From Branchiostoma floridae (lineage: Eukaryota > Chordata > Leptocardii > Amphioxiformes > Branchiostomatidae): 64,000 nucleotides of DNA. The position numbers and the translations under genes are program-made. The notes beneath the pieces were generated by a model. That model did not search any database and was not told the origin of the DNA. It worked only from the letters and a program-made list of their open reading frames with translations. Shown in pieces: positions 9,901-26,214 of the stretch (within the stretch, counting starts at the first letter, position 1; each line of letters starts with the position of its first letter). The stretch covers positions 13,615,526-13,679,525 of the forward strand of contig NC_049993.1 of assembly GCF_000003815.2 (NCBI RefSeq), read 5' to 3'.

Positions 9901-12900
9901 TGGCGCTGCTAACAATGCGGTCCCAAACATTACCTATTGTCACATATACTGTTTAGCAGCAATAAATAAGAGATTTGGGATCTGTTAGCAACGACACCTA
10001 GCTGCAATACATAAAAGTTGTTTTAGTTGTATACAAAAAAGTTGTGAATGAAGAACTTTGATATCAATTCATTTTCCAACCTGAATGAATTATTTCAGAT
10101 ACATTTTCCTTTGAAGAAGAAATTACTATTTGGACTAGTCTTACTTATCAGTGTTACTTAGTACATTGATGATTACAGTAGCAATTGTTTAGTAAAGCAT
10201 ATAAGAAAGTATTAGTCAATGGTAAATTTGTCAAAATAACAAAACGTTAAACCGTTGCAAAAACAGAGAAAAAAGCAATGCTATAAGCATAGATTACCGT
10301 GCACATGTGCAATGTTATGCATTGTTGGTAATATGTCAAAGGTCAAGGCCCCTGGCAACACATGAAGATTGGCCAGTAGCCTTCAACTTCGACAATTTAT
10401 AATTTGCACACTAATTCTTAACCAGTTTATTGTAAGAAGCTTGTTGTTTTCAGTATGTTATGTCTTTATGGACTATTTCTCGGTCAACTTCCAGTCAGTT
10501 GAAATGCCTTACCGGGATCGGGAGCGTGACCTTCGTTCGCGGGAACGAGACCTCCTTCTGCGAGGGGACCGAGAGCGTCTCTTCGGGGACCGTGACCTGG
10601 ACCGTCGATGTCGGCTACGGCTGCGTGAACGTCGGGACCGGGATCTACATGATTTGAAGGGTAGTAGGTTAGAGTCAATCTAGTAGTTAAGTCATGTCTG
10701 CACCATTCAAAAGTCAAGAAAATACACTAGCAGTTAGCACAGATAGAGTGCTAAGGCTCCGTCCCCCATTGTAATTTGGACACCCATGCTGTAATTTAGG
10801 CCCCTACACTGTATTTCAACTAGCTCAGAAGTCAATGACTCATAGAAAACCTTGAACTTTTAATCTCCATACAATTACTTGTTGGAGTGTTTGCAGTGAA
10901 AATGTTGTGATTTATCCAGCTCATGTACACTTTGCCTTAAACATATACCTAAAAACATTACATCAACAGTATCAATAGTTTATTTTCACAGGGTTTGATT
11001 TTGCAGAAGTGTCGTAAGTTTGTTGCTGAAACAATTCTATGGCACAGTAATAATACAATGGAAATGCATATATTTACTGTGTCATAATTTCGGGGAGAAG
11101 AGGTTATGGCAAAAATATTGCATCACAAACATTTCTCGATGTACGGCATTGCTTACCTTCGGGGTGACCTGGACCTCGAGCGCCGTCTCCGAGAGTAGGA
11201 TCGCGATCTGGACCGGCTTCGGCGCCGCTTGTCGTCCTTCTTTTCTGAAATCTCTGAAGACCGTAAGGTTGGCTTTTCTAGAACCAAAGTTTCAACAGCA
11301 GGGCATTTATTTCAAAATTCTTCATTCAAAATTTCAGAAAGTCAGAAACGACCATGCTTTATTATATTAGAGTTAATCGTTCAATATAGCACATCACTGC
11401 AGAGAGAGAGAGAGACACTTTAGGCTAGCTGGAGAATGTACCTATGGCTGGGATTTGCAACGTGGCCGCCGTCATAGTTCCTGCATTTGGGTTGAGTGGA
11501 ATATATTACACATATAGCCCAATTCTAACAATACTAAACAACCTGGAAAAGATCTGGAAAGCTATAACTATACTATAAGTAGAGGAAGAATTTGTACTTT
11601 TTTGGGGGGAGGGGGGCTGACATATATCTTTCTATTTGTATATCAGAAGGATGCCAAAGATGATTTTTCTTTGAATGAATCTTGTAAGCAATTTTGTGGC
11701 AGACACTGATCTCCAAGCAGATGTTGGGGTATCCAGAAAAAACATTAAGATTGAGCTCACTGGTCAATCAGAAAATGTTACAATCTTTCACCCCAACATC
11801 TGCTTGGAGGTCAGAAACAGCTTTCCAGTCAGTACCAGTCTTAACATACTTTGACAGATAATTTCGGATTATTAATTCCTTCCACATTAGATTTTAAAGT
11901 GTTATTAAAAATAGAAGACTGTACAAGAGTTTGAGAAAAGGGTGGAAAATTTGTTGTCTTCAGAGTTGTGATGTACAGATGGATTTGAAACTTGGTCTGT
12001 TACATAATAATTTCACTGTACTTTTCACTAATGCTTCAAAGACAAATGTTTGGTGTGATTTTGAATGATTTCACAGTAACATGAATATATGATGGTAAGA
12101 TATGAAAAATATCAGATTTAAGAATGTTGTTTTCCTTTACCAATACTAAAAACAGAAGTTGCATGAAACTGGTGAAGAGAGAAAAAGATGAAAAGTACCA
12201 ATGGTTTACAACTGTAGTGTGATAGGTGTAAGGTCATTTGAATGATTCATATTCATACCTGACAAAATGTGAAACATGCCTTAGTTATCACTCTTAGTAT
12301 ATTCAACTAAAATTGGATTCTGTCTTTAAGCTACAATAATTTCAACAAGGATATAGTAATTATACACATTCTTGCCGTAATAATGATGTGTTACCATATG
12401 ACACTAAACAATTTTAAAGTCTAATCTATAAGTAATATTTTCATTTGCAAATAAAACAAATATGTTTCATTAGTTATGTGAAGACATTTATATATTAAGT
12501 CATGCCAATATATATTTTCATTTTAACTATGCAGGCAAGGACCTAGAAGTAGAACCTATTTCTGAATATTCTACAAATTTTCAAAATCAATATTCATTTC
12601 TAACAATAGATTACTTGATTCTAAAGCAGTTTTTTTATCTCAGCGAACTCCTGTTAACATACACCAAACATCCTGACCACCCCTTTGTTTGGTTCGTCCG
12701 AGAACATCAATCAAGAGACTGTGGGACGCTCCACAGTTGCCGTGGGGGGTGGCCAGGCTTGTTAGCAAAAAACCAAGACACAGCACAAGAGAATCCAGCC
12801 AAGCATTAATTTACAGTTGCAGTGTTTCGTAGCTAGCATGCTGTCAAACCATGTGGGGTCAGTCCATTCGTTGTTTTCACGGTTGTTTTATTTCCTGCTA

Positions 12901-15900
12901 GGAGGTTTTGTACATGATTGGAAGTACTCAGTTGGAACATGTTCCTAGTTTCTCAATTTTGTGGTAAGATGCCATAGCGAAAAACTTGGAAACAAAACCA
13001 CCGCGAAAATTCCAAAATTTACAGTATTTCTTCCTCTTGTGTCAAACACCAGACCAGCTAGTAACATATTTTGATCCATTCCAAATAGTGTAACTGCTTT
13101 ACAATACATCAAATTCTTGGCTCATTCCTTTAAAATACACATATTTTTGCAAAGCAGAATGCTACTAGCATTTCTCAATGATGTACATAAAGGGTATTCT
13201 ATTAAAAAGATTTTTGGGTAGGGCAGTTACTTTTCTTTCCATGTTCTGTCCTTTTTTTTAATGAGTGGTGTTTAAAAAGATCTTGGTATAAAATATATCA
13301 AGTAGAAAGATCCGGTCTGTGCTTTCAACAAGGAGGAAGAACTGTCAGTTCCGTAGTGGAAGTGTGTAAAAAATGTCCTGAATTCCCTAGAACTCGGGAG
13401 TGCTGGGTTAAAACTCATGTAGATACAATGGAAGATTATATAAAAGTCAGAGATGGCATCCTTGGTTCCATCCTGGTTGTCAGGAGTGGGAGTGACACGA
13501 GGGTGTGCCTTGGTTATGTAAGCGAGGAAAACTATGCAATCACTGAATGCCTACTGCTCTCTGCCATGCACCTTGACTCTCAGCCCATGCAGTTGTTGGG
13601 GGTGGGCATCCTGTGGTTCATGGTACCGTGCTCTGCTAACTAGAGTTTGCAAAACCATGTCGCAAAGACTGAAAAAGTTGCTTGAAGCAAGACACACAAT
13701 TTTTCCCAAAATTTCGTGGGATAGTAGCAACTGGTTTAATGCCGAAGATCCAGTTTTAATTGTTGAATTTTCAAATTCTAGCCCAATTTTCAAATTTTAG
13801 CTAAATTTTCAAATAATCCCAGCATTGAAATTTCAGCCCAATTCTTACATTCTATCAGTATTTTTTCTAATTTTGGCCTATTTTTTTCTTTATTTAGCCC
13901 AGTAAAATGTAAATTTATCTTCTATTCCTCGAAATTTTTCTGCTGTTCCATGCCTTATAACAGCAAACAAATCCAACAATGCACAACAGACGTGAACGTA
14001 ACGCACAACGAGAGCGGAACACCACACCATGAACCCGGCGGATCAGAGTCGACAGAATGCCCGGCTAGTTCCACACCTGGGACATCAGGCCCAAACAAAC
14101 ACAGAGGTAGTAGTAGTGCTGTTCTCCTTGATATTGACCACTTGCCTGCATTGAGGGCGGACGAGATATGACTCTGTGCTTCTCGCACTTGGTTCAAGAC
14201 GGCGTCAATCTGGGCCACGTGGGGGTTGGTCAGGGCCACAGGTTTGTTTAGGGCGATGTTGGAGTAATTAACCCTAATATGCGACATACCAAAGGATTAG
14301 AGAGAAATGGAGAATACAGTAGGAAGAGAGAGGTTTGGGCGCACCTGGCTCGATGGCGGCTGTGATTAGAGCCTCCGCATCGCGGACACGTTTCATGGCC
14401 TCCTCGATTTCCCGGCGCTGTGCCTCGGGAGTCTGAGTCTGGGGCTTGACGATAGCATTGTTGGAATGGTTAATCCTGGAAATTAAGGTTTAGAGCCTAT
14501 GAGACATTGGGTGGTGTGTCGCCGGCACACTAGCAAACCATAAAGTAATCATATGCTAAATAGGCTATTGCAGGGGAGCCCTTCCTTCCGGGATGTAAGA
14601 AAACCCCATGTGGAGCCTCAACAACAATTTCTTTTGACCTAAAGCAGCAAAACCCCATGTGAAGCCTTGATAATCATTTCCTTTCTATATCAGAAAAACC
14701 CCAAGAAGAGCCTCTATGAATTATTTTTCATGTGCATCTGCAAAGCCTTTGCAGAGCCTCAAAAAGAATTTTCTTTCACTGTATCAGCAAATCTGATTAG
14801 ACAGCAGTTCAGGTTTCACACAGAGGGGGCGCTGGTGCACATCCGAGAAGGAAGGAGTTGACAGAATGGTAGTTTGTGTTGTTAAGTGTGAATGGGGGGA
14901 AACTCCCTGTAGGGCTCGTGGCAGCCTTATTCACGGCCTTGCTCTCACCGCCGAGCCTGGAGTAACAATAACAGTCACATTACTTTCCACATAACAGCCA
15001 AATCTTCAGGAGATACCACCTTTAAACAAGCACAACAGGGTTTGCAATGTGATGTTCTATCATTATCCATGTGTAAAACATTCATACTCGTAGTTTTGTC
15101 GGTAAAAATACTTCACTCATCTTGTCTTAACTTATATCACGATTGCAAACCCCGTGCCCATCGTACTTTGTAACCACTTTTAGAAATTAGAGGGAACAAA
15201 ATTTAACAAACAACAACAACACTCTGCCAAAAGCCATTATGCCTCCCGAATGGAAGCATTTCTAGTAGCTTCAGTATACTACTCATACATTTAACATGTG
15301 CTTTCCTTTGGACACTATCATAATATATTCTTGTGACAACTATGTCAGATCATTTTACAACTTCCTACTAATAACAACAATATATACAAAAAATGTAAGG
15401 TCAATGAGATAATTGATAAGTTGTTCTTAATATGTACATAAAACCCTTACATCTAAATGATCAATACGTGAAAGACAGTTTCTTATAGTAAAACATCTAT
15501 AACATTAAACAATCAATGATCATATAAAAAAAACTAAGAAAGGAAAGCATGTCACTTTCCAAACAATCATCACAGAATGCTAAAAGATGTTGTTCTATAA
15601 ATCATACAATGTACTTAAATTTCATGTTAAATCATATGGAACTTATCAAGCCAAAATAATCTTAATCATAATCATATCAAGAAATGCTAGGATAATTTCA
15701 TTAAAAACTGGTATGCTAAAAAATCAAAATAATACGATTTTGGTATCAAGAGAAATACCTTTTTACAAATAAATACAACAATTCAAAGTATATAATTACA
15801 TATTCTCATCAGATTGAACAGGTAGCCCATGAATAGGACATTGTAAGATGTCTTACAAAATAATCTTAAAAGCTTCCAAAGAAAGAAATACGTGTGAATG

Positions 15901-18900
15901 TTTGCATACTTGAGTGGTCGGTTCCCGAACATGATGCCGTTATACTGCAAAGCCTTTGCCACAGACGTCTGGTCGGCGAACTCGACAAACGCAAAGCGCG
16001 TGGGCTGGGTCTCGTCCCCCGCCATGCGGACGTACTTGACCTCGCCCACTTGCTGGAAGAAGTTCAGGAGCTGCTCGGCGGTAACCTAGGACAACAGGGT
16101 CATAGGTCAAAGACACTGAACAACTTGTCTGAAAGGGCTGTCAATCAAAAGGAAGAAACAGGAAGGAGGCAGAAATGAAGAGTTCTGATTAGTTACTCAC
16201 TAATTGTATTACTTTTCTCATTAAAAATTATTCTATTTTTTAGAAGACACAGGAAGTAGTTTTTCTTTATGAACTAAGAGGATAAAAGTGTATTTTTTAA
16301 TTATAGGTAAACTTGTTAGTCCAGGGAAAGGAAGTAGTTTTGCCACACAGAAGGTTATAAAGCGGGGAGGTAAGTTAGAAGAATAGGTTGTGGATCGTAA
16401 AAAAGTACAATATACGTCACCCCTTCAACTTACAGTGGCGGAGTCCAAGTTGCCCACATAGACTGTCCGTCGGATCTCATCAATTTTGGAAGGGTCCACA
16501 TTGCCAGGCAGGGGTGGAAGCTGGGTTACGGCAAAAAAAACACAAATTTTAACAACATATTTGTATGACTTACAGTGGCAGAGTCCAAGTTTCCCACATA
16601 GATGGTCCGGCGGATCTCCTCTATTTTGGAAGGGTCCACATTGCCGGGTAGGGGTGGAGGCTGGGGTAGGCCAAGAGCTGCTAATGCAGGGTCATACTGT
16701 GGGGCTAACCCTGCACCAGCAGCAACCCCGGGCTACTGGAACACAAGACAAGGAAAAAACGCAAAACAGACGGAACAAACCTCCTGGTTTAAGCCGCCGT
16801 CACACTGTCAACAATCTTTGTTTGAATGTGTTGTTCACCAGAGAACGTTGGCGAATTTTGAAATTTTTTTTTATTTTTTTTTTTATTGAGATTCTCCATA
16901 TACCTATGGAGGGTATGGTGAAACAGGTATCAAAGACGCCTTTTCAAAGCCACCATACCGTTGGCTTTGTTGTTCGGAGTTTCCATCTCCTAGGAGGACT
17001 TCCGACCAAGGATGCAAGGGGTTCCTCCTACCCCTGACTCGTGTGTCATGGCGGGTGCGTCATGCCCGAACATGCCCCTATGGCCTGTCACCACAACAAA
17101 GGCCTGTCACTGCCACTAGCCGCAGCTATGTACTCATTTACACCTGAGTTAGGTGAGGAAAGTCGTGTAAAGTGCCTTTCCCAAGGGCACAAGATCGGTG
17201 ACACGGCAAGCGGATTTGAACCCGGGACCTCTCGGGCCTGAGACCAACGCGCTCCCGATCGTGCCACGCGGTCCCACCGTGCCACGCGGTCCCACTTGAG
17301 TATATTTTTCTGTGAAAATTTACCATATGACATTGGATGGGGCTTAGTGACTGTGAACATTGGTTCACATCATCATCATCACATTGGCTGATCACTACAA
17401 GTTATGCAGCAATCGAGGAAGCAGCATTTTGCACTTCTTTAGGGTTTATTTTTCAAAATCAGGGCAAAGTTCATATTATATAGTAAACATCTTTGGCCTA
17501 GAACAATTGTTTTTATGGTTGTTTTTTCTCTTCTGACAACTAAACTTCTATGTGGAGAAACTTAGACTCAAGCATTCAGACCATATTACAATAAACAATG
17601 ATGCATACCCCATTTGGAAAGTTATTTGTAGTTCATAGTTCTATTGTCTGCATTTGAGTAGCACTCTTGCAAAACTAGTTATACCACTTGGGGTTATTGT
17701 TGCAATGGTAACATGATGTGTCTGGAAGAATATTAGCATTCAAACATAGATTTAATAATTCGCATTAAAAAGCATGCACTATCATTATATAGCAAGGTTT
17801 CCAACAAAAACAACAGAGCATATTAGTTATTGTTTTTGATATAGATATTGTAACATGATTGAAAATGTTTCAAGCTTTACAGAGGTTTGCTGTGTCAATC
17901 TATGACACAGAAGAATTGGGAGTCATACTAGAAAATTTTGCAACAGGGTGATATCCAGTAATTCATTGACTCGCTGTTTTAGTAAGAAAAGGGATTTTTT
18001 AATCATAGTTTGTGAACATTGAAAAATAAAATGTACAATGTCGATGGATGGGAAAATCTTATCAATTCACCACTGGGAATATATTTTTGGCAAGAGCTCA
18101 AGTGTGAACTCATTTAATAATCAGTTTTCTCAATAACACCCTTATTCAGACAACTGAGTTCAAATCAAAGCATTGAAAAAGCATCAATTTAATAAGCCGT
18201 TTCACAGGTCAAACTGCACATGAGATGTGAGATGCATTGTGGGTAATATGTCAAAGGTAAAAGCCCCTAACAGTTTTTTCTAGACCATGCTTGATACATA
18301 TTGAGACATGTTTTTAAGTCTCAGGGACCTTCAACATTAACATATTACCTACAACAAATCATATTCTGCATGTGCATTTGGAACTATGTACTGGCTTATT
18401 ACTTTCTACCCAACACCATGCAGTTGATAGTGAGACATTAGGTTAAGGTAATACAAACCTGGTCTCCCATACCGGATCCGAGAACGTCCTACATGGGTGA
18501 TATGAAGCATGCATGTCTATGGTTGGCTGACCACACACTAGTAGTAGTACAAGTATTTTTTAAACGAAAAACTAAGGCACAATGACACACGGTCATGTAA
18601 GACCCAACTGTGCTGTATGCAAGCTTCTAGCAAGTCTAAATCTAAACATGCACAAATACAGGCTGATAGGGCTCAAAATACTAGTACGTTAACACACATA
18701 TACAGTTGTTTTCAACACATTACTGTAATTGTCTTATTTTCTATACTGCTAAATTTAGCCTCCTTCACAGCTTTCTAAGAGCGGTGGCGTTTATTGGGGG
18801 AGGGGCAAATACGATATTTGTAGGATAAAATTCTGCCTATATGCTGAAAATTGCAAATCATTGCGCACACCACCTCCCCTCAAAAAAAAAAGAAAAAATG

Positions 18901-21900
18901 CTCCTGCAAAGGAGGTTAGTTAAAGTAGCCATTGTTATAATGTTGATGTTGTTTTAAGTGTAAATTTAACTAGTTCAGACTTTAAGTTTGAATAAATGGC
19001 AAAACAAAGAGAGGATTTGTAAATACATTTGTATTAGCATTTTGAGCCCTAAAAGCTACCACAACACAATTACAAGGTTTTCAAACAAAATGCAAACACA
19101 TTACAAGATGCTAGAACAGCTCTAAAAGCCACACACGTTAACGTTACATGTCAAATAGTAGTCCCTGGAAGCACGCTCTTACAACAGAAAATCCCATCTT
19201 TTTCCATCAAAGATCAAGATAGGATTAACATAGTTTGCAAGGAAAGAATTGAGCTTCTCTTCAGAATGGGTAGAAACATAACATTACAAAACATGGGATA
19301 GAAATCACAGTACAAAATAACAAGCCGAAACAAAGGAGTACGGTAGAGTACAGTCCACTTTTCTCACTGACAGGTTTCAACATAACATCGGATACAGGAA
19401 TAGCCACAAACCTTGCTCACACTTTCAGGAAAAAATGCTCCAAGTATGTCCTATAGGAGGGTAAATAGCATGCAAGTTACATTCATTATTGTCACTTCAC
19501 TCATTGTTATTAACAGTTATCATCACAATGTCAGTAGCATTCACTGTGCATTATTATCAAACCAAGTCAACTCTCTGTTCATCAAACCATACAAAGAATT
19601 TTAACAGAGAAAGCGTTTCCTTTACGTGAATTTCAATATTTTGTTACGTCTATGTCACACGTGAAAAAACACACATTGCAATTTGATGCATTATTGGGTT
19701 GCTTAATCGTTAGTACTTAATTAAGAAGTGTAATTAACACACCTGGTCAGCCAGAGTTGCCCCCAGTACTTCCTATAATGGGTGAAATGAGTGCAGTTTA
19801 GTAGAGGAAATATCAACTTAGTTGCTGAGAGCGTAACGTTACCATTTAGAGTGAAAATAGATATGTTCATAGCTTCACAACTCAAGCGGTGTATTTGTCA
19901 GTGAAACACAAAAACCAACTAGAGTCAATTCCGAGTCACCGAGAGGATTTTGAAATAATGTTTGTCATAAGTTTGAACTATTCTAAGCAAAAGAATATTT
20001 CAGTCACTAAAGTTGTAAATTGTTCAAACAATTAAAAATGAAAGTTTGAACATGTTTGAACCTACCTACATATGTTGGAAACATTGGGAAAGTAATGGTA
20101 CAAATATCTCTTTATTTAGAACAATTTAGAAACATCTATGTGTTTTTGTTATTGTTGGAACATGTGATCATATGTTCCAACGATTTGTGTCATTTTTTCC
20201 CTCCATGAAAACTTTTATTACCCCCATAAACCAAGCTGCTAAGCTGGGCCTTTTGTTTGGGTCTTGTATTTTTAGATTTACTTTAGTAGACAATGGTGAC
20301 TCCTTTGTCAGAAGGTGTCAGACAGACACAATTTCCTGTACTTGGCAGGGATGTGTGAATTGCCCTCTTCCCAGCCCACTGACCCAGTTTCATCATATTG
20401 TTTCCATGTTCGAACATGTGATCACAAATGATGAATCTATGTTGGAACAGTTTAGAAACTATCAGAAATAATGACTTTGATGTTAGAAATGTTTCTAACA
20501 TGTTTGAATACTGTAGAAAATATTTAGAACATCACAATGATGTTATAAACAGTTCTAAACACTTACTTATCACAATTATTATGTTATAAAGATTTCCAAA
20601 ATGTTGGAACAAAAGGCAAGAAACACCCTCTTGGTAATGTGGAATTGACTCTATGTCACATTTGTTCAATCAAAAGCAGCATGTACTATTTCACACAAAA
20701 ACTTATATATTACCTATCAAGCATATATTAACAGGACAAAGTCATTGAATGACAACTAAAAGGATCCTGTATAAATTTGTCCGATTTAATCTACAAGGTT
20801 CTGAAATTTTGACAATTTTGTGTACAACAATGTCACAATACAATATCATACAAGAAATATGATTTCAAACTTGTGTATACCAACATACCAGAAGTTTAGT
20901 TTCATACATGCCAATCTTATAATAATATTTACAGTTCAAAGAACAAATTATAACAGCATCACGTGTATCTTGTATACTATAAAGTGCCAAACACAGTGGT
21001 TTTATTCTTGCAGTGAATGCTCCACTGTGAATTCATTACATTGCAAATATGCATTTCTACAAACAAATGTACTACTGCACTACACAATTGTTTCAACCAC
21101 AGATTTTGAAACACCACAAAATCTCATTTTCTTTCCATTGAAAAATAAAAACACAGTGAAAGTAAATAAATTTACGGTAAGAAAGTATAGCCGATACATA
21201 CCCCTCCTGCTACCCCTGCAGCTGCCAGAAGTGGGTTGGCTATAGGTGCTGGGGTGGGGAGTAGGGCGCTGGCCGCAGGTGCTGCCCCCCCAGGGATCAT
21301 ACCAGCCACCGCATTGGCTGGTGCTGCCAACTGAAGGGCCTTAGCTTCATCTGGAATGATGCCTGTAGAAGCCACATAACAGTAAACCCTATTAGCTCCT
21401 GTTAAAACTGCATAGAATAGGTCTATATACACATAAATATTACAGTAAAGGTAGACCAATTATATATCTATAATGTTGCAGTTTGGCAATTTCTGTTATG
21501 CAGTATCTGTTACAAATTTCATGCAAAATGTCTGGAATACAGCTCTTTGCTTTAGGAATACTAGCTTGGCTTGGCGTGTGTTACAGTGTGTACTGTACTG
21601 TCTGTAGCAGGAGATTTGACACTCCCATGTCCTTATTTGGACTTTCAACAACAGATCTGTCTCTATGAGTCTATCTGTCTCATTGTACATCTGCCATTTT
21701 TAGCATTATTGTGTCAAATACTTTTTTTTTTAGACGGACAGAGTTAAAGTTTTCTCCGTCCGAAGAAGAAGATTAACGCAAATGAACATCACAATCCCTG
21801 TACGAAGGAACGGGTCCTGTTCTACAATCATACGCACCATCCTGACAAGGGACAACGATCAGCGCCCTGTCGATGAACACGGTGTTGGTGAGGTGCTGTG

Positions 21901-23030
21901 CAACGCCGCAGTTTGTCGGGTCGTCGTATTTCACGTAACACACCTTGGAAGTCACCGGCACTGAGATATCCCTAAAGACAAAGAGGAACGTTGTAACTTG
22001 TAAGGTTGAAACAATACATGTAACACAACTACACTTTACGCCTCATATTTCAGATTCCCGTCTTAGAATTGAATCACATGTAGCCTGAGTACCATTCTCC
22101 GTAGTGACCGCTGGCTCAATACTTTCGCTTGCTAACCGCAGTATTGAGCCGGTCACGCAGAGGATGGTACTCAGGCTCTCAGTGACCTTAAGCTAGACAT
22201 GAATACTTAGAACCATGATCTCCTTTGGCTTATTATCTACTGGAGATTTGTTGCAGGATTTGTTTTAGGTACAATTAATACCTCTAAAATTCTCATGGAT
22301 TTGGCCTAAACTAAAAGTATGGAGAATAAATTGAATAGGGTTTAGCTCCAGTACATGTGTACACATACATAATAATATGCAAGTTTGCAAATAACACAAG
22401 TACTACTAGTATACTTATAGATGTGAGTGCAAGTTACTGTGCAAGTAAAATTTGGAGTATCTACTATCTTGATAATTTGTCATGGAATACACATCTTATA
22501 AAATGATAGGGAAAAGAAATAATAAATTATAAGTCATGATGATTCAGGAATCAGGAACATAATCTTTATAATTTCTGTTTACACTTTAGAACATATACCC
22601 TGGCATGATTTCATGTGAATATGATCAAAATGATATCAAAGGCTTAAAAGTTATGATTGATTGATGTACAAAACAAAAACATAATTTTGCACCGAAAACG
22701 TCCGAGTGCACATGTAACTTGCAAGATTCAAGTCCAACACAATCCTTGATGGCAATGAAAACAAACTCTCTAAAGTACAAAATAGGAAGACCCACAGCCA
22801 GATTGCACAGTTCCATTCCGGGAAGATGCTATAAATAACCCAGCGAAAAATGCGGGCCACAAAATCGATCCAAGTGAAACCGCACGGCTAAAGAAACACA
22901 GACGATGGACTCACTCAGGGTACAGTTTGATCTCGTCAATCTTGCCCAGGAAACTGAACAACGTCTGCATCTGCTCCTTGGTGGCGGCCGGCGCCACGTT
23001 CGTCACCTGGATCACCTTCGTTTGCGTCAT
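6975..23030 (-). CDS. SREK1: SREK1/SRSF11-type SR splicing regulator (two RRMs and RS domain)
   Basis: This is a nuclear SR-related protein that modulates splice-site choice. Core exons (high-low): 23030-22915, 21971-21838, 21362-21202, 16732-16574 (A), 16085-15910, 14475-14345 (C), 11244-11157, 10644-10513, 9638-9591, 8896-8819, 8384-8310, 7748-7559 and 7151-6975 (stop). They total 1665 nt, or 554 residues, with all phases matching. RRM1 is at residues 6-80 (VIQVTNVAP.., HLTNTVFIDRALIVVP). An Ala/Pro linker follows. RRM2 is at about 176-250 (RRTIYVGNLDSAT, RMAGDETQPTRFAFVEFAD). The RS domain covers about 294-432, a Lys/Asp/Glu exon about 433-496, and the tail (TRDYDEEEQGYDSEKEK) ends in DMDVDSD. 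Alternative exons are listed separately. An upstream in-frame ATG at 23129 exists, but family alignment favours 23030. A 5'UTR acceptor just before that ATG (CCCTCAG) is possible. Confidence 0.93.
8037..8207. mobile_element. Pogo/Tc1-like MITE remnant
   Basis: The ends CAGTAAAAGCCGCTTAATTG and, inverted, GTGCAATTAACTGGCTTCC pair imperfectly, with internal GTGCAATTA repeats. CAGT..CTTAATT-type ends resemble pogo/Tigger elements. It lies in a SREK1 intron. Confidence 0.45.
9884..10018. mobile_element. MITE with GCAGCTAGGTGGCGCTGC ends, family 3
   Basis: GCAGCTAGGTGGCGCTGCTAAC-like ends are inverted at 9889-9912 and 9984-10009. GTCCCAAACAT in the core is shared with copies at 26713-26856 and 39110-39300. 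Confidence 0.6.
11442..11480 (-). CDS. SREK1: Candidate 39-nt cassette exon of SREK1
   Basis: The stretch is flanked by AAATGCAG and GTACATTC. It is 39 nt long and open in the phase needed between exon C or D (ends with one base) and the RS exon 11244-11157 (starts with two bases). It would insert 13 residues (around TMTAATLQIPAI) without shifting the frame. No equivalent is known to me in vertebrate SREK1 or SRSF11. Confidence 0.5.
11706..11814. mobile_element. MITE, CTCCAAGCAGA family
   Basis: The ends CTCCAAGCAGATGTTGGGGT and its inverted copy ACCCCAACATCTGCTTGGAG are perfect over 20 bases. It sits in the SREK1 intron upstream of the 39-nt cassette. Confidence 0.8.
13955..14145 (-). other. 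Open read-through region after SREK1 exon D
   Basis: The reading frame of exon D continues past its GC donor for about 62 codons to a stop at 13955-13957. The stretch is more GC-rich than the surrounding intron. If the intron were retained, the protein would end here without an RS domain. It may equally be chance. Confidence 0.3.
14146..14273 (-). CDS. SREK1: SREK1 exon D, alternative copy of exon C
   Basis: 128 nt, acceptor ATATTAG, donor CAG/GCAAGT (GC type). It encodes VNYSNIALNKPVALTNPH followed by VREAQSHISSALNA. This is alignable with exon C (INHSNNAIVKP.. VRDAEALITAAIEP) and with the vertebrate segment that follows RRM2. It enters in phase 2 and leaves in phase 1, exactly like exon C. 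Using both copies (131+128 nt) would break the frame. Confidence 0.75.
14345..14475 (-). CDS. SREK1: SREK1 exon C, canonical copy
   Basis: 131 nt, acceptor TTTCCAG, donor CCAG/GTGCGC. It encodes the end of RRM2 and the helical segment EIEEAMKRVRDAEALITAAI, which is strongly conserved in SREK1 and SRSF11. It is separated from exon D by a 71-nt intron. Confidence 0.88.
14590..14790. repeat. Imperfect tandem repeat, unit about 48 bp
   Basis: Four degenerate units each contain AAAACCCCATGTGGAGCCT or a variant, followed by a T-rich tail. They start near 14600, 14648, 14694 and 14742. Confidence 0.5.
16434..16520 (-). CDS. SREK1: SREK1 exon B, alternative copy of the RRM2 start
   Basis: 87 nt in phase 0 at both ends, acceptor GTAACCCAG, donor GTAAGTTG. 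It encodes LPPLPGNVDPSKIDEIRRTV then YVGNLDSAT. It differs from the last 29 codons of exon A at three residues only: Leu/Pro at the first, Asp/Glu at residue 14 and Val/Ile at residue 20. It contains the first RRM2 beta strand (RNP2). Confidence 0.85.
16574..16732 (-). CDS. SREK1: SREK1 exon A, longer copy of the RRM2 start
   Basis: 159 nt in phase 0 at both ends. The first 24 codons (YDPALAALGLPQ region) match the SRSF11/SREK1 linker, and the last 29 codons are the copy of exon B. The acceptor is a CAGTAG pair; only the second AG keeps the frame open. An internal CCCCAG at the A/B homology boundary would give an 87-nt short form (16660-16574), also in phase 0. Confidence 0.85.
16895..17290 (-). 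repeat. tRNA-derived SINE-like repeat
   Basis: On the minus strand, GTCCCGGGTTCAAATCC resembles a tRNA B box. It is followed by sequence found in other repeats of this window (AAGGCACTTTACACGACTTT, complement at 17160-17190). A short direct repeat GTGCCACGCGGTCCCAC occurs twice at 17262-17296. Confidence 0.55.
18200..18395. mobile_element. MITE family 2 copy
   Basis: It contains TTGTGGGTAATATGTCAAAG and an inverted counterpart near 18335-18350, as in the copies at 6768-6907 and 49518-49679. Confidence 0.5.
18459..18488 (-). CDS. SREK1: SREK1 linker microexon 3 (30 nt)
   Basis: It is flanked by CACCCATGTAG and GTTTGTAT, in phase 0 at both ends, and encodes DVLGSGMGDQ. It is related to the microexons at 19412-19450 and 19743-19772 through the shared E/D-V/I-L-G start. 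Confidence 0.65.
19412..19450 (-). CDS. SREK1: SREK1 linker microexon 2 (39 nt)
   Basis: It is flanked by CTCCTATAG and GTTTGTGG, in phase 0 at both ends, and encodes DILGAFFPESVSK. Its donor resembles that of microexon 3. Confidence 0.62.
19743..19772 (-). CDS. SREK1: SREK1 linker microexon 1 (30 nt)
   Basis: It is flanked by CACCCATTATAG and GTGTGTTA, in phase 0 at both ends, and encodes EVLGATLADQ. Its acceptor is nearly the same as that of microexon 3, which suggests tandem duplication including flanking intron. Confidence 0.65.
19921..20652. mobile_element. 0.73-kb inverted-repeat element in SREK1 intron
   Basis: It starts AGAGTCAATTCC and ends GGAATTGACTCT, an exact 12-base inverted repeat. 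The interior is rich in GTTGGAAC/GTTCCAAC-like words in both orientations. No coding capacity is recognised. Confidence 0.55.
22082..22177. mobile_element. 96-bp hairpin MITE
   Basis: AGCCTGAGTACCAT at the left and ATGGTACTCAGGCT at the right are exact inverted repeats. Pairing continues inward through TGACC and GGCTCAATACT. Confidence 0.8.
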
Positions 23031-23591
23031 CCTGAGGGAAAAAATCGCGTAATTTGCGGGAGAAATTTGCCTGGAATCTTTCCTAGAATGAATCGCTCGC
23101 CATCTTCCCGAAAATGGCGTCGTCCTCACGTTCTGAAATTACCCACGATGCACTCATGACGGGACCATCCATTTCTCGTTCTTGAGTTTTAAAAAAAAAT
23201 GAAGGCCCCCTCCTTGAAAACACATAAAATATGAGAAAAAAAGCATCCATTTGAATGTCCTATTCAATTCATTCTTAATACAATAGGGCTACTTCAATCG
23301 TTTGATTTAAAAGATATTGAAACCAACTCACAACTTAGTCTGTGATTTCTGATTATGACATTAAAAAGATATTAAATGAAGATTTACCTAATTTAGCCTT
23401 TATTGACTTGTTAAGGATTTTGAAATTGATTTTATGTTTCCGTTTTGTATGACACGAAAGCCACTATTTTTGTTGCATTCTTTAATTTTTAGAAATCAAC
23501 CATACACAGAAACATAATGTACTACCCCTGCATAATCGTGGTGCATGTTGGGTCAAAATTTGCATCATCCCTCAACTTCCGCCCTGTCAAC
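23031..23591. promoter_or_regulatory. Divergent promoter region, SREK1 and NCSTN
   Basis: The two start codons are 561 bp apart and point outward. Near the SREK1 side (23090-23125) two GATGGCG/AATGGCG words resemble YY1 sites. The NCSTN ATG itself lies in AACATGGCGG. Bases 23180-23510 are AT-rich with nothing recognisable. Confidence 0.5.
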
Positions 23592-26214
23592 ATGGCGGTG
23601 CCAAGGAGCGTTTTGCCACTTCTGTTCTTGTGTTTTCCCCTGTGTTGGGCGCAGTTCCGCAGCGTTCACGACATGATCTACGTGAACATCACGGCCCAGG
23701 CCCCGTGTGTCCGCCTGATGAACGCCACGCACCAGATCGGCTGTACTTCGGCTGTGAGCGGGAATGTTGGAGTGCTTCACTACTGTGCTGAACAGGTAAC
23801 CTTACACATAGACTGAGTCATACTCTAATGATTTTATTCATTATGTCTAGTCTTGGAGCGGATATTGAAGAGGGAGATTGTAATATTTTCTTCCTGCTTC
23901 GTTTTTTATTCATCAAAGTCTGCCAATATGTACTTACTGATACCATTTAGCTAAGTAACGTTATGAAAATAATTTCCCACCACAACAAAGAGGAAGTAAT
24001 GTGATTACAACTTGGGTTTACTACTGTAAATGCATTTAGGTTTATGGTGGTTTTATTTTGCAGTAGCGGGGCTTTCTTAGTAAAGTTCACGGTTGAAACT
24101 ATTCTATAGTGCGGTAGAATTACGTTGCGGTGTTAAGATTTCATGGTAAGCGGTGTCCATGAAAACGAGAAAATAAAAGCACCACACTGACCGCAGACAT
24201 TTCAAGATTCATGGTATATATACTATATTTGATAACTAATACATGTATGTGTTCCCTGTTTTTATAGAGTGACGTTGACTGGCTGATCCAAAGTGCAAAG
24301 AACAAGCCCTACATGCCCCTCATGGTGCCGCGTCTGTTCACGTACGAAAACGTCCAAGGCCTCCGAGCGTCCGGTAAGATCAGCGGAATCCTGGTCGCGT
24401 ACGGGAACCGTTCCGACCCCCAACCTCCGCAGGCCGGCTTCTCTCCTGTCCACAAGTGTCCGAACGACGGCTACGGTATGTACAGCGATCACCCAGAGTA
24501 CGCCCACTGTAAGAACACCACGTGGAATCCCTTGGGTTCTGGGCTCTCGTACTTGGATTACGACTTCCCGATGTCCCTCCTGGTGAACCAATCGGACATC
24601 GACTACCTCATCGACTGTCACAATAGGTTCAACAAGTACGACAACGACAGCAACCAAGCGTACCCGCTGTGCGCTGTGCAGATCAAGGATCGTATGGACG
24701 GAGCCAAGGATTCCATCACTTGTATCAGGAGGAGCAACCTAAATATCAACCTCAACCCCTTCGTGTACTGTGACGCGCTCGGAGACAAAAACGTCTGGGG
24801 CACGCTGCGTCCTCTCAACAAGTCGACTCCGTTGAACGACAGCAAGGAACTGATCGTGGCTTCAGCAAAGATCGACACGTGGTCCCTGTTTCACAACGTG
24901 GGTGGAGTCGGAGCCAACGACGCAACAGGATTCATCGCACTCCTGGCTGCAGCAGAGGCTCTTGGGAAACTGGATCAAGTAGAGAAAAATGCCATGAAGG
25001 ATTTGATGTTTGTGTTCTTCCAGGGGGAGACGTTTGATTACATCGGCTCGTCTCGGATGGTGTATGACATGCGGCGAGGAGAATTTCCCGCGAAGCTGAA
25101 CGACAAGGTCCCGTGGCAGCCCTCATTGGTCAACACGACAAACATCCAGTACTTTTTGGAGGTGAGCCAGGTTGGTCTATGGGAACAGTCGGGAGGACTG
25201 TGGGCTCACAGCGACCCCGTCTCCCAGAAGACATCCGCAGTACGCGACAACGTCAACGCCATCTTTTCCGCCATCGAAAACGCGACAGATTCCACCAACA
25301 TCTCGATCGGAAAGCCGCCATCATTCCAAGCATTGCCCCCGGCGTCTCTGCAGCGCTTCCTACGGGAGGATCTGGGAGTCCCGGGAATCGTCCTGTCCGA
25401 CCACATGGCAGCATACAGCAACAACTACTTCATGAGTCGTCTAGACCTGCCCGCCGAGATCGGCATGGACATTCCCGCGAATCTTAAACCTGACGAGGCC
25501 TACGACTACACAACCAAGCAGGGCGAGAGCCTGACCAAAGTGGCTACAGTCATAGCGAGAACTCTGTACCAACTGGCCTCAAACAAGTCTCCTTCTGAGG
25601 CTGCAAAAATTACAGCTAGCAGCAGTACCATCAACCACCTCCTGTACTGCTTCCTGCAGCATGCCAATTGTCCGCTGTTCGCCGAGGTTCTCTCAAGCAA
25701 GTCCGTGGCCGCGTTAAAGTCCCTGCCGGGACCGCTACCGCGTTACGTCAGCGTCCCACAAAACGCAGCCAATCAGATTAGCCAGGTTGTTGCGAATCTC
25801 CTCACCTTCTACCTCGGCGAAAGGCTTCCCAACCTGAACACGCCGACAGAATGCAAGACGCCCAGATACGACCACATCAACAGCTATATCTTCATGAACG
25901 GCCGTCCCGTGGTAAACACGACAGATAACACGACGTCGTACGCGAGCTTCTGCATGCGCGCGTCCGTGCAGTTCTCCACTGCCGTCTCGCCAGCGTTCTT
26001 GTCAAACGAGATGTTGCACTCGAACGAGTATTCCACGTGGACAGAGAGCCGATGGACCGTCCTCAACGCGAAAATATTCCTCGTCTCGAGCGAGGCAGAA
26101 CAGACCATCACGTTGTCTGTGGGGGTGGTGGTCATCCTGGTGTCCCTCGTACTCATGTATTTCGTGAACACTAAATCAGACGTCCTGTTCACAGCTCCTG
26201 AAGCAGAATATTGA
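23592..26214 (+). CDS. NCSTN: Nicastrin, gamma-secretase subunit
   Basis: Nicastrin is the type I membrane glycoprotein of the gamma-secretase complex that gates substrate entry. Exon 1 is 23592-23795 (68 codons with signal peptide VLPLLFLCFPLCWA). Exon 2 is 24268-26214, joined in phase 0. The protein is 716 residues against about 709 in human. The hallmark GETFDYIGSSRMVYDM lies at residues 321-336. The fold is related to M28 aminopeptidases but inactive. One membrane helix (ITLSVGVVVILVSLVLMYFV) precedes a short tail. Many N-glycosylation sequons are present. The first in-frame ATG, at 23517, lacks a good context and would delay the signal peptide, so 23592 was chosen. With only one intron, against many in human, this is an intron-poor or retro-derived form. 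Confidence 0.97.

Follow-up and report, generated by a model that had tools for sequence, protein, structure and literature searches.

A duplicated exon pair at the start of RRM2 in a lancelet SREK1-like gene, and the probable one-at-a-time use of its members

If a gene carries two adjacent exons that encode almost the same piece of an RNA-binding domain, are both used, only one, or either one at a time? This question is raised by an SREK1-like gene of the lancelet Branchiostoma floridae, which lies on the reverse strand of the window, the whole stretch of 64,000 nucleotides that was analyzed. Our analysis confirms that the two exons, A and B, are a real tandem duplication at the start of RRM2. 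As to their use, we put a probability of roughly two in three on the reading, drawn from the sequence, that A and B are chosen one at a time.

The gene and its duplicated exons

All exons described here are predictions from sequence, and all lie on the reverse strand. E1 (22915–23030), delimited by an open frame and splice sites, carries the start of RRM1 from its ATG and ends in phase 2 at GA/gtgagt. The remainder of RRM1 is in E2 (21838–21971), placed by its open frame and the spliced model. E3 (21202–21362) encodes an Ala/Pro-rich linker and ends in phase 0 at GGAGGG/gtatgt, a donor that would be common to A and B. Exon A (16574–16732; 159 nt) comprises 24 linker codons followed by 29 codons at the start of RRM2, and exon B (16434–16520; 87 nt) encodes an alternative version of those 29 residues, without the linker. 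The rest of RRM2 is encoded by exon C (15910–16085), which was identified by Pfam and the spliced model and ends in phase 2. Farther downstream are D1 (14345–14475; 131 nt) and D2 (14146–14273; 128 nt), both entered in phase 2 and left in phase 1, with a gap of 71 nt between them (14274–14344); D2 has a GC-type donor, CAG/gcaagt. In spliced translation, the model E1-E2-E3-(A or B)-C-(D1 or D2) is open throughout. RS-, KE- and KD-rich stretches near 11290, 10673 and 7780 are downstream of the D exons and outside the spliced model.

The architecture is that of SREK1 (SRrp86), with RRM1, a linker, RRM2 and an Arg/Ser-rich tail; RRM2 was recognized by Pfam and the RRM1 exons by reading only. The RRM_1 family is matched by A+C (1.3e-16) and by B+C (7.7e-17). 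The gene name rests on what we take to be the human SREK1 protein, which is closely matched by exon C, by D1 and by the last part of the linker; SREK1 is absent by name among the best 60 of 72 solved-structure matches. A search of the genome (513 Mb, 431 contigs) with exon A/B and RRM1 + linker queries found no second copy of the gene, and the four matches to the RRM1 + linker query are all in the SREK1-like gene itself. The RRM_1 profile has at least 118 matches in the same genome (150 of 263 candidates scored). On the opposite, forward strand, 23493–26214 contains open frames, one of 648 codons (24268–26214), that are nicastrin-like by eye only. A nicastrin-like gene at this position would stand head to head with the SREK1-like gene, about 0.5 kb from E1.

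The first-pass annotation described A and B as adjacent exons for a near-identical 29-residue RRM2 start, and its description of their structure is borne out: 26 of the 29 residues are the same, both exons keep phase 0, both end at GCCACT/GTAAGT, and the gap between them is exactly 53 nt (16573–16521, gtaagt...cccag). The 24-residue linker comes with exon A only, as had been stated. The E/D and I/V differences between the copies are also real, and P/L is a third residue change. A mechanical repeat search reports the pair as a direct repeat of 107 nt with 88% identity. The 29 shared codons contain 10 nucleotide differences, seven synonymous and three non-synonymous (those at P/L, E/D and I/V), with dN/dS 0.13, dS 0.37 and a synonymous difference of 0.29 per site. 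The two exons are interchangeable, in that either gives an open model through RRM2 in spliced translation.

Lancelet heterozygosity is about a few per cent, far below the synonymous difference between A and B. With that difference, and with the copies 53 nt apart on one contig, the pair is unlikely to be an assembly artefact of merged alleles.

B would have arisen when about 107–140 bp from the 3ʹ side of exon A were duplicated in tandem. The shared part begins within exon A at CCCCAG/CC, and the B acceptor seems to derive from A coding sequence; such an origin would explain why B has no 24-residue linker. Beyond GTAAGT, no similarity is detectable between the intron stretches that follow A and B (P 0.92), so these introns provide no neutral yardstick for the divergence of the exons.

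How might A and B be kept apart?

We propose that A and B compete through their acceptors for the E3 donor; the competition is placed at the acceptors because A and B do not differ in their donors. Once A had been taken, B would be passed over, since the A donor and the B branch point would be too close for both to be occupied. The products would be RRM2 with a long linker and E/I, from A, or RRM2 with a short linker and D/V, from B. We infer that both exons are used in RNA and that their acceptors compete; the choice may also affect RNA binding, which the first-pass annotation suggested could be tuned by the E/D and I/V differences.

The proposed crowding depends on where the B branch point lies. 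There is no AG between the A donor and the B acceptor except the one in A's GTAAGT, and the B branch point is therefore expected within the gap. A branch point can be allowed 15 nt to its acceptor, which bounds the distance from the A donor to the B branch point, by gap length, at no more than about 38 nt. The skipping of B after A would follow from this distance, set against a mammalian limit of ~50 nt. This limit is used in work on OGDH (PMC7969005) and in a survey of human mutually exclusive exons, which reports a distance from donor to branch point below 50 bp in 57 of 629 clusters (9%) (PMC5740500). The best branch-point candidate in the A-B gap is TGTTAAAA, 28 nt from its end, with a score of 3.4 on a branch-point weight table. 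This is not a strong match, compared with 4.8 before A and 5.5 before C.

How unusual is a gap of 53 nt in this genome? We made approximate estimates of 142 gaps that separate neighboring exon matches in three conserved families: CCT (60 rows, 28 gaps), myosin (142 rows, 61 gaps) and kinesin (134 rows, 53 gaps). The median gap is 383 nt and none is 71 nt or shorter. The smallest, of 87 nt (on contig C6), is inside one 551-aa open frame and is probably not an intron; the next is 107 nt. Short introns could hide inside match rows, and row excesses were therefore inspected. Seven kinesin rows have excesses of 33–63 nt, of which the four largest (51, 54, 54 and 63 nt) are continuous frames; those of 33, 36 and 36 nt were left out of the frame reading. 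CCT excesses of 48, 48 and 99 nt are in match rows without an internal stop. The larger excesses (132–408 nt in kinesin, 198–309 nt in myosin) are presumably longer introns that were read through.

The first-pass annotation argued that a gap of 53 nt would alone be enough to force a choice. The gap is far below the usual intron size of the genome, which suggests that the B branch point would crowd the A donor. The claim is weakened by human introns of 43, 49 and 56 nt that are reported to be spliced (PMC4463651), a 56-nt intron being served by SPF45 (PMC8363638). A parallel to the proposed crowding is the human OGDH gene, whose exons 4a and 4b are described as kept exclusive by branch points 25–41 nt from the donor (PMC7969005). 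OGDH resembles A/B in having a branch point very near the donor of the upstream exon, but it is an enzyme gene in which the branch points were mapped experimentally, whereas the distance for A/B is bounded by gap length. A and B each have a U2-type donor, GTAAGT, and a YAG acceptor, so U2/U12 incompatibility is rejected as the enforcing mechanism. Inverted repeats of at least 12 nt, which could serve docking/selector pairing, were not found in 16100–16900 by a search that also missed the exon A hairpin described below, whose stem contains G-U pairs.

The same gene contains what looks like a second pair. The peptides of D1 and D2 align with a score of 60 (z about 8); shuffles average -11.7 (sd 9.0), and none of 5000 scores as high. 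The two lengths are both 2 modulo 3. Joining D1 to D2 leads to a frameshift, with a stop a few codons later. The frame is likewise shifted when both are skipped, as C ends in phase 2 and D1 and D2 end in phase 1; the next exon is outside the model. Provided that D2 is indeed an exon, the frame would be kept only if one of the two is used and the other left out. The D1-D2 gap has a single match to the simple branch-point motifs tried, TCTAATC at position 48, which is 23 nt upstream of the acceptor. The presence of the D1/D2 pair makes exon swapping at A/B more credible.

An unlikely alternative to one-at-a-time use, although one with evidence in its favor, is that B is silent or barely used: only A would be used, and B would still be recognizable because the duplication is not very old. 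The differences between A and B argue against free drift of both copies (P 0.0065 in an exact test, 0.014 in simulation), but they do not reject a history in which exactly one copy was unconstrained (P 0.084 and 0.117). The B acceptor is preceded by pyrimidines at 15 of 21 positions, compared with 18 of 21 and 16 of 21 for the upstream and downstream AG of A, respectively, and the weak branch-point candidate in the gap is also as expected for a silent exon. On the other hand, B has no stop, and its AG and GTAAGT are intact. With what we take to be the human SREK1 sequence as an outgroup, A accounts for two of the three residue changes (D to E and V to I) and B for one; the P value for constraint is 0.014 for B alone and 0.040 for A alone. 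B keeps the D and V of this presumed human sequence and A does not, which means that, in protein sequence, A has changed more than B, with identities to the same sequence of 25/29 for B and 23/29 for A. Taken at face value, B is not visibly decaying, in an exon so short that statistical power is low.

Could A and B instead both be constitutive, with the 53-nt intron spliced and the linker extended by 29 residues that include a second copy of the first strand? We consider this quite improbable. It was suggested earlier that inclusion of both exons would disrupt the fold, and this is not supported: as far as the reading frame is concerned, A+B+C is in frame and B+C is a whole RRM2, so the 29 residues of A would only lengthen the linker. 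Thus, unlike D1/D2, A and B have no frame backup to their choice, and their joint inclusion would be tolerated by the frame. Even for frame-breaking pairs in human, reads joining the two exons are reported in 83 of 377 clusters (PMC5740500). Splicing of ultra-short introns in human cells (PMC4463651, PMC8363638) also speaks for constitutive use of both. So does vertebrate COE/EBF, in which H2d-H2a is described as a short domain-encoding exon that, like A/B, was duplicated in tandem, and in which both copies are constitutively included (PMC2394523); COE/EBF is the model for such an outcome at A/B. Against it, the A-B gap is smaller than every gap in our sample, and the distance from donor to branch point is as short as the bound given above. 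The gap is also not G-rich, unlike many human ultra-short introns (PMC4463651).

The acceptor of exon A

Exon A has a tandem acceptor, CAGTAG (16733–16738, reverse strand), recognized from the sequence and spliced translation. Since RRM2 sets the reading frame, splicing to the upstream AG makes an in-frame TAG the first codon of the exon. Exon A may for this reason be partly unproductive; it may also be held back by structure. A hairpin is predicted by RNA folding over the linker part of exon A and the acceptor (16661–16738, reverse strand), with a free energy of -43.3 kcal/mol (z -4.57; none of 200 dinucleotide shuffles as low). The linker alone (16661–16732) folds at -39.1, with P 0.017 against synonymous-codon shuffles and P 0.0007 against shuffles of codon order. 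When longer contexts are folded, CAGTAG has several bases that are mostly paired. The B acceptor is more open upstream of its AG, with its final G largely paired too. For the two contexts that span the entire gap, the A donor comes out as mostly paired and the B donor as less so.

On a further and improbable reading, A is mainly stop-bearing, such that A turns the gene off and B turns it on, and this splicing factor may regulate itself. Stop-bearing exons are reported to control the level of most SR-protein genes (PMC11791180), and at A both the position of CAGTAG in the frame set by RRM2 and the predicted hairpin over the acceptor fit it. In mammals, the upstream AG of a tandem acceptor is described as generally preferred, the more so with a longer pyrimidine tract and a more distant upstream AG, while a pyrimidine at -4 and a tract close to the site favor the downstream AG (PMC3250501). 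These rules conflict at CAGTAG. Pyrimidines occupy 18 of the 21 nt before the upstream AG and the nearest AG before that is 45 nt away, as expected for upstream use; yet there is a C at position -4 and the tract runs right up to the site, and both features point to the downstream AG. The rules were, moreover, measured in mammals, and the hairpin signal is modest relative to synonymous codons. The linker and the RRM2 part of exon A resemble preserved coding sequence, and the linker has a pattern, DP..A.LG..PQPP, that we take to be common to human SREK1. This preservation implies that the downstream AG is used at least sometimes, and a mainly stop-bearing A is the least probable of the alternatives that we consider.

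Separately, a recent interspersed repeat (16890–17300, reverse strand) lies about 150 nt upstream of exon A. By eye it is tRNA-derived-SINE-like, with a box B-like GGTTCAAATCC and an A-rich tail; no tRNA gene was found in the window by ARAGORN. The repeat has 97–100% identity at 40 scored places (of 2243 candidates), its own copy included. A young insertion such as this, possibly polymorphic, may affect the use of A from its position near the A acceptor.

Other duplicated exons and the vertebrate counterparts

The U2AF1 exons Ab and 3 lie within the UHM. These exons (also 3b and 3a) are described in vertebrates as tandem, near-identical and mutually exclusive, giving isoforms that differ by seven residues (PMC6821156, PMC5224494). 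Like A and B, they are tandem-duplicated exons in a splicing factor with an RRM-like domain (the UHM). U2AF1 is a different gene, and exon use has been shown there in RNA, whereas use of A and B is predicted from sequence; in addition, double inclusion in U2AF1 is reported to lead to nonsense-mediated decay (PMC6821156), whereas lancelet A+B stays in frame. Human SREK1 is likewise alternatively spliced, but the event described is inclusion or skipping of exon 10, in the EK-rich region (PMC8927159), rather than a choice between duplicated RRM2 exons. We found no report of the A/B and D1/D2 pairs in the literature on mutually exclusive exons of amphioxus, on SREK1/SRSF11 or on exon duplication in Branchiostoma, and the accessible part of an SR-gene survey that includes Branchiostoma floridae does not mention these exons (PMC3173450). 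Hence, swapped duplicated exons in splicing factors are already known from U2AF1, the other such splicing regulator found in the literature, and lancelet SREK1 would be a further case.

The linker of exon A also includes DPALAALGLP, which we take to be a stretch of human SRSF11. SRSF11 is not known to contain a full RRM2. This presumed SRSF11 stretch, together with the single locus in the genome, suggests that the lancelet gene may be the common counterpart of SREK1 and SRSF11. A more extended reading, which we regard as decidedly doubtful, is that this single-copy counterpart combines a three-way RRM2 switch (long linker, short linker, or off by way of the stop-bearing acceptor in the hairpin) with a two-way choice between D1 and D2. 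The protein may set the switch, and the alternatives were perhaps divided between SREK1 and SRSF11 at the vertebrate duplication.

What would one-at-a-time use of these exons mean? If the pairs are used in this way, a single gene could give rise to several forms of an RNA-binding protein. If true, the presence of two pairs in one gene, of which one has a strict frame logic, would make the cost and the enforcement of exon choice comparable side by side. The lancelet gene would also serve as a reference, from before the duplication, for vertebrate SREK1 and, if our assumption about the SRSF11 stretch holds, for SRSF11.
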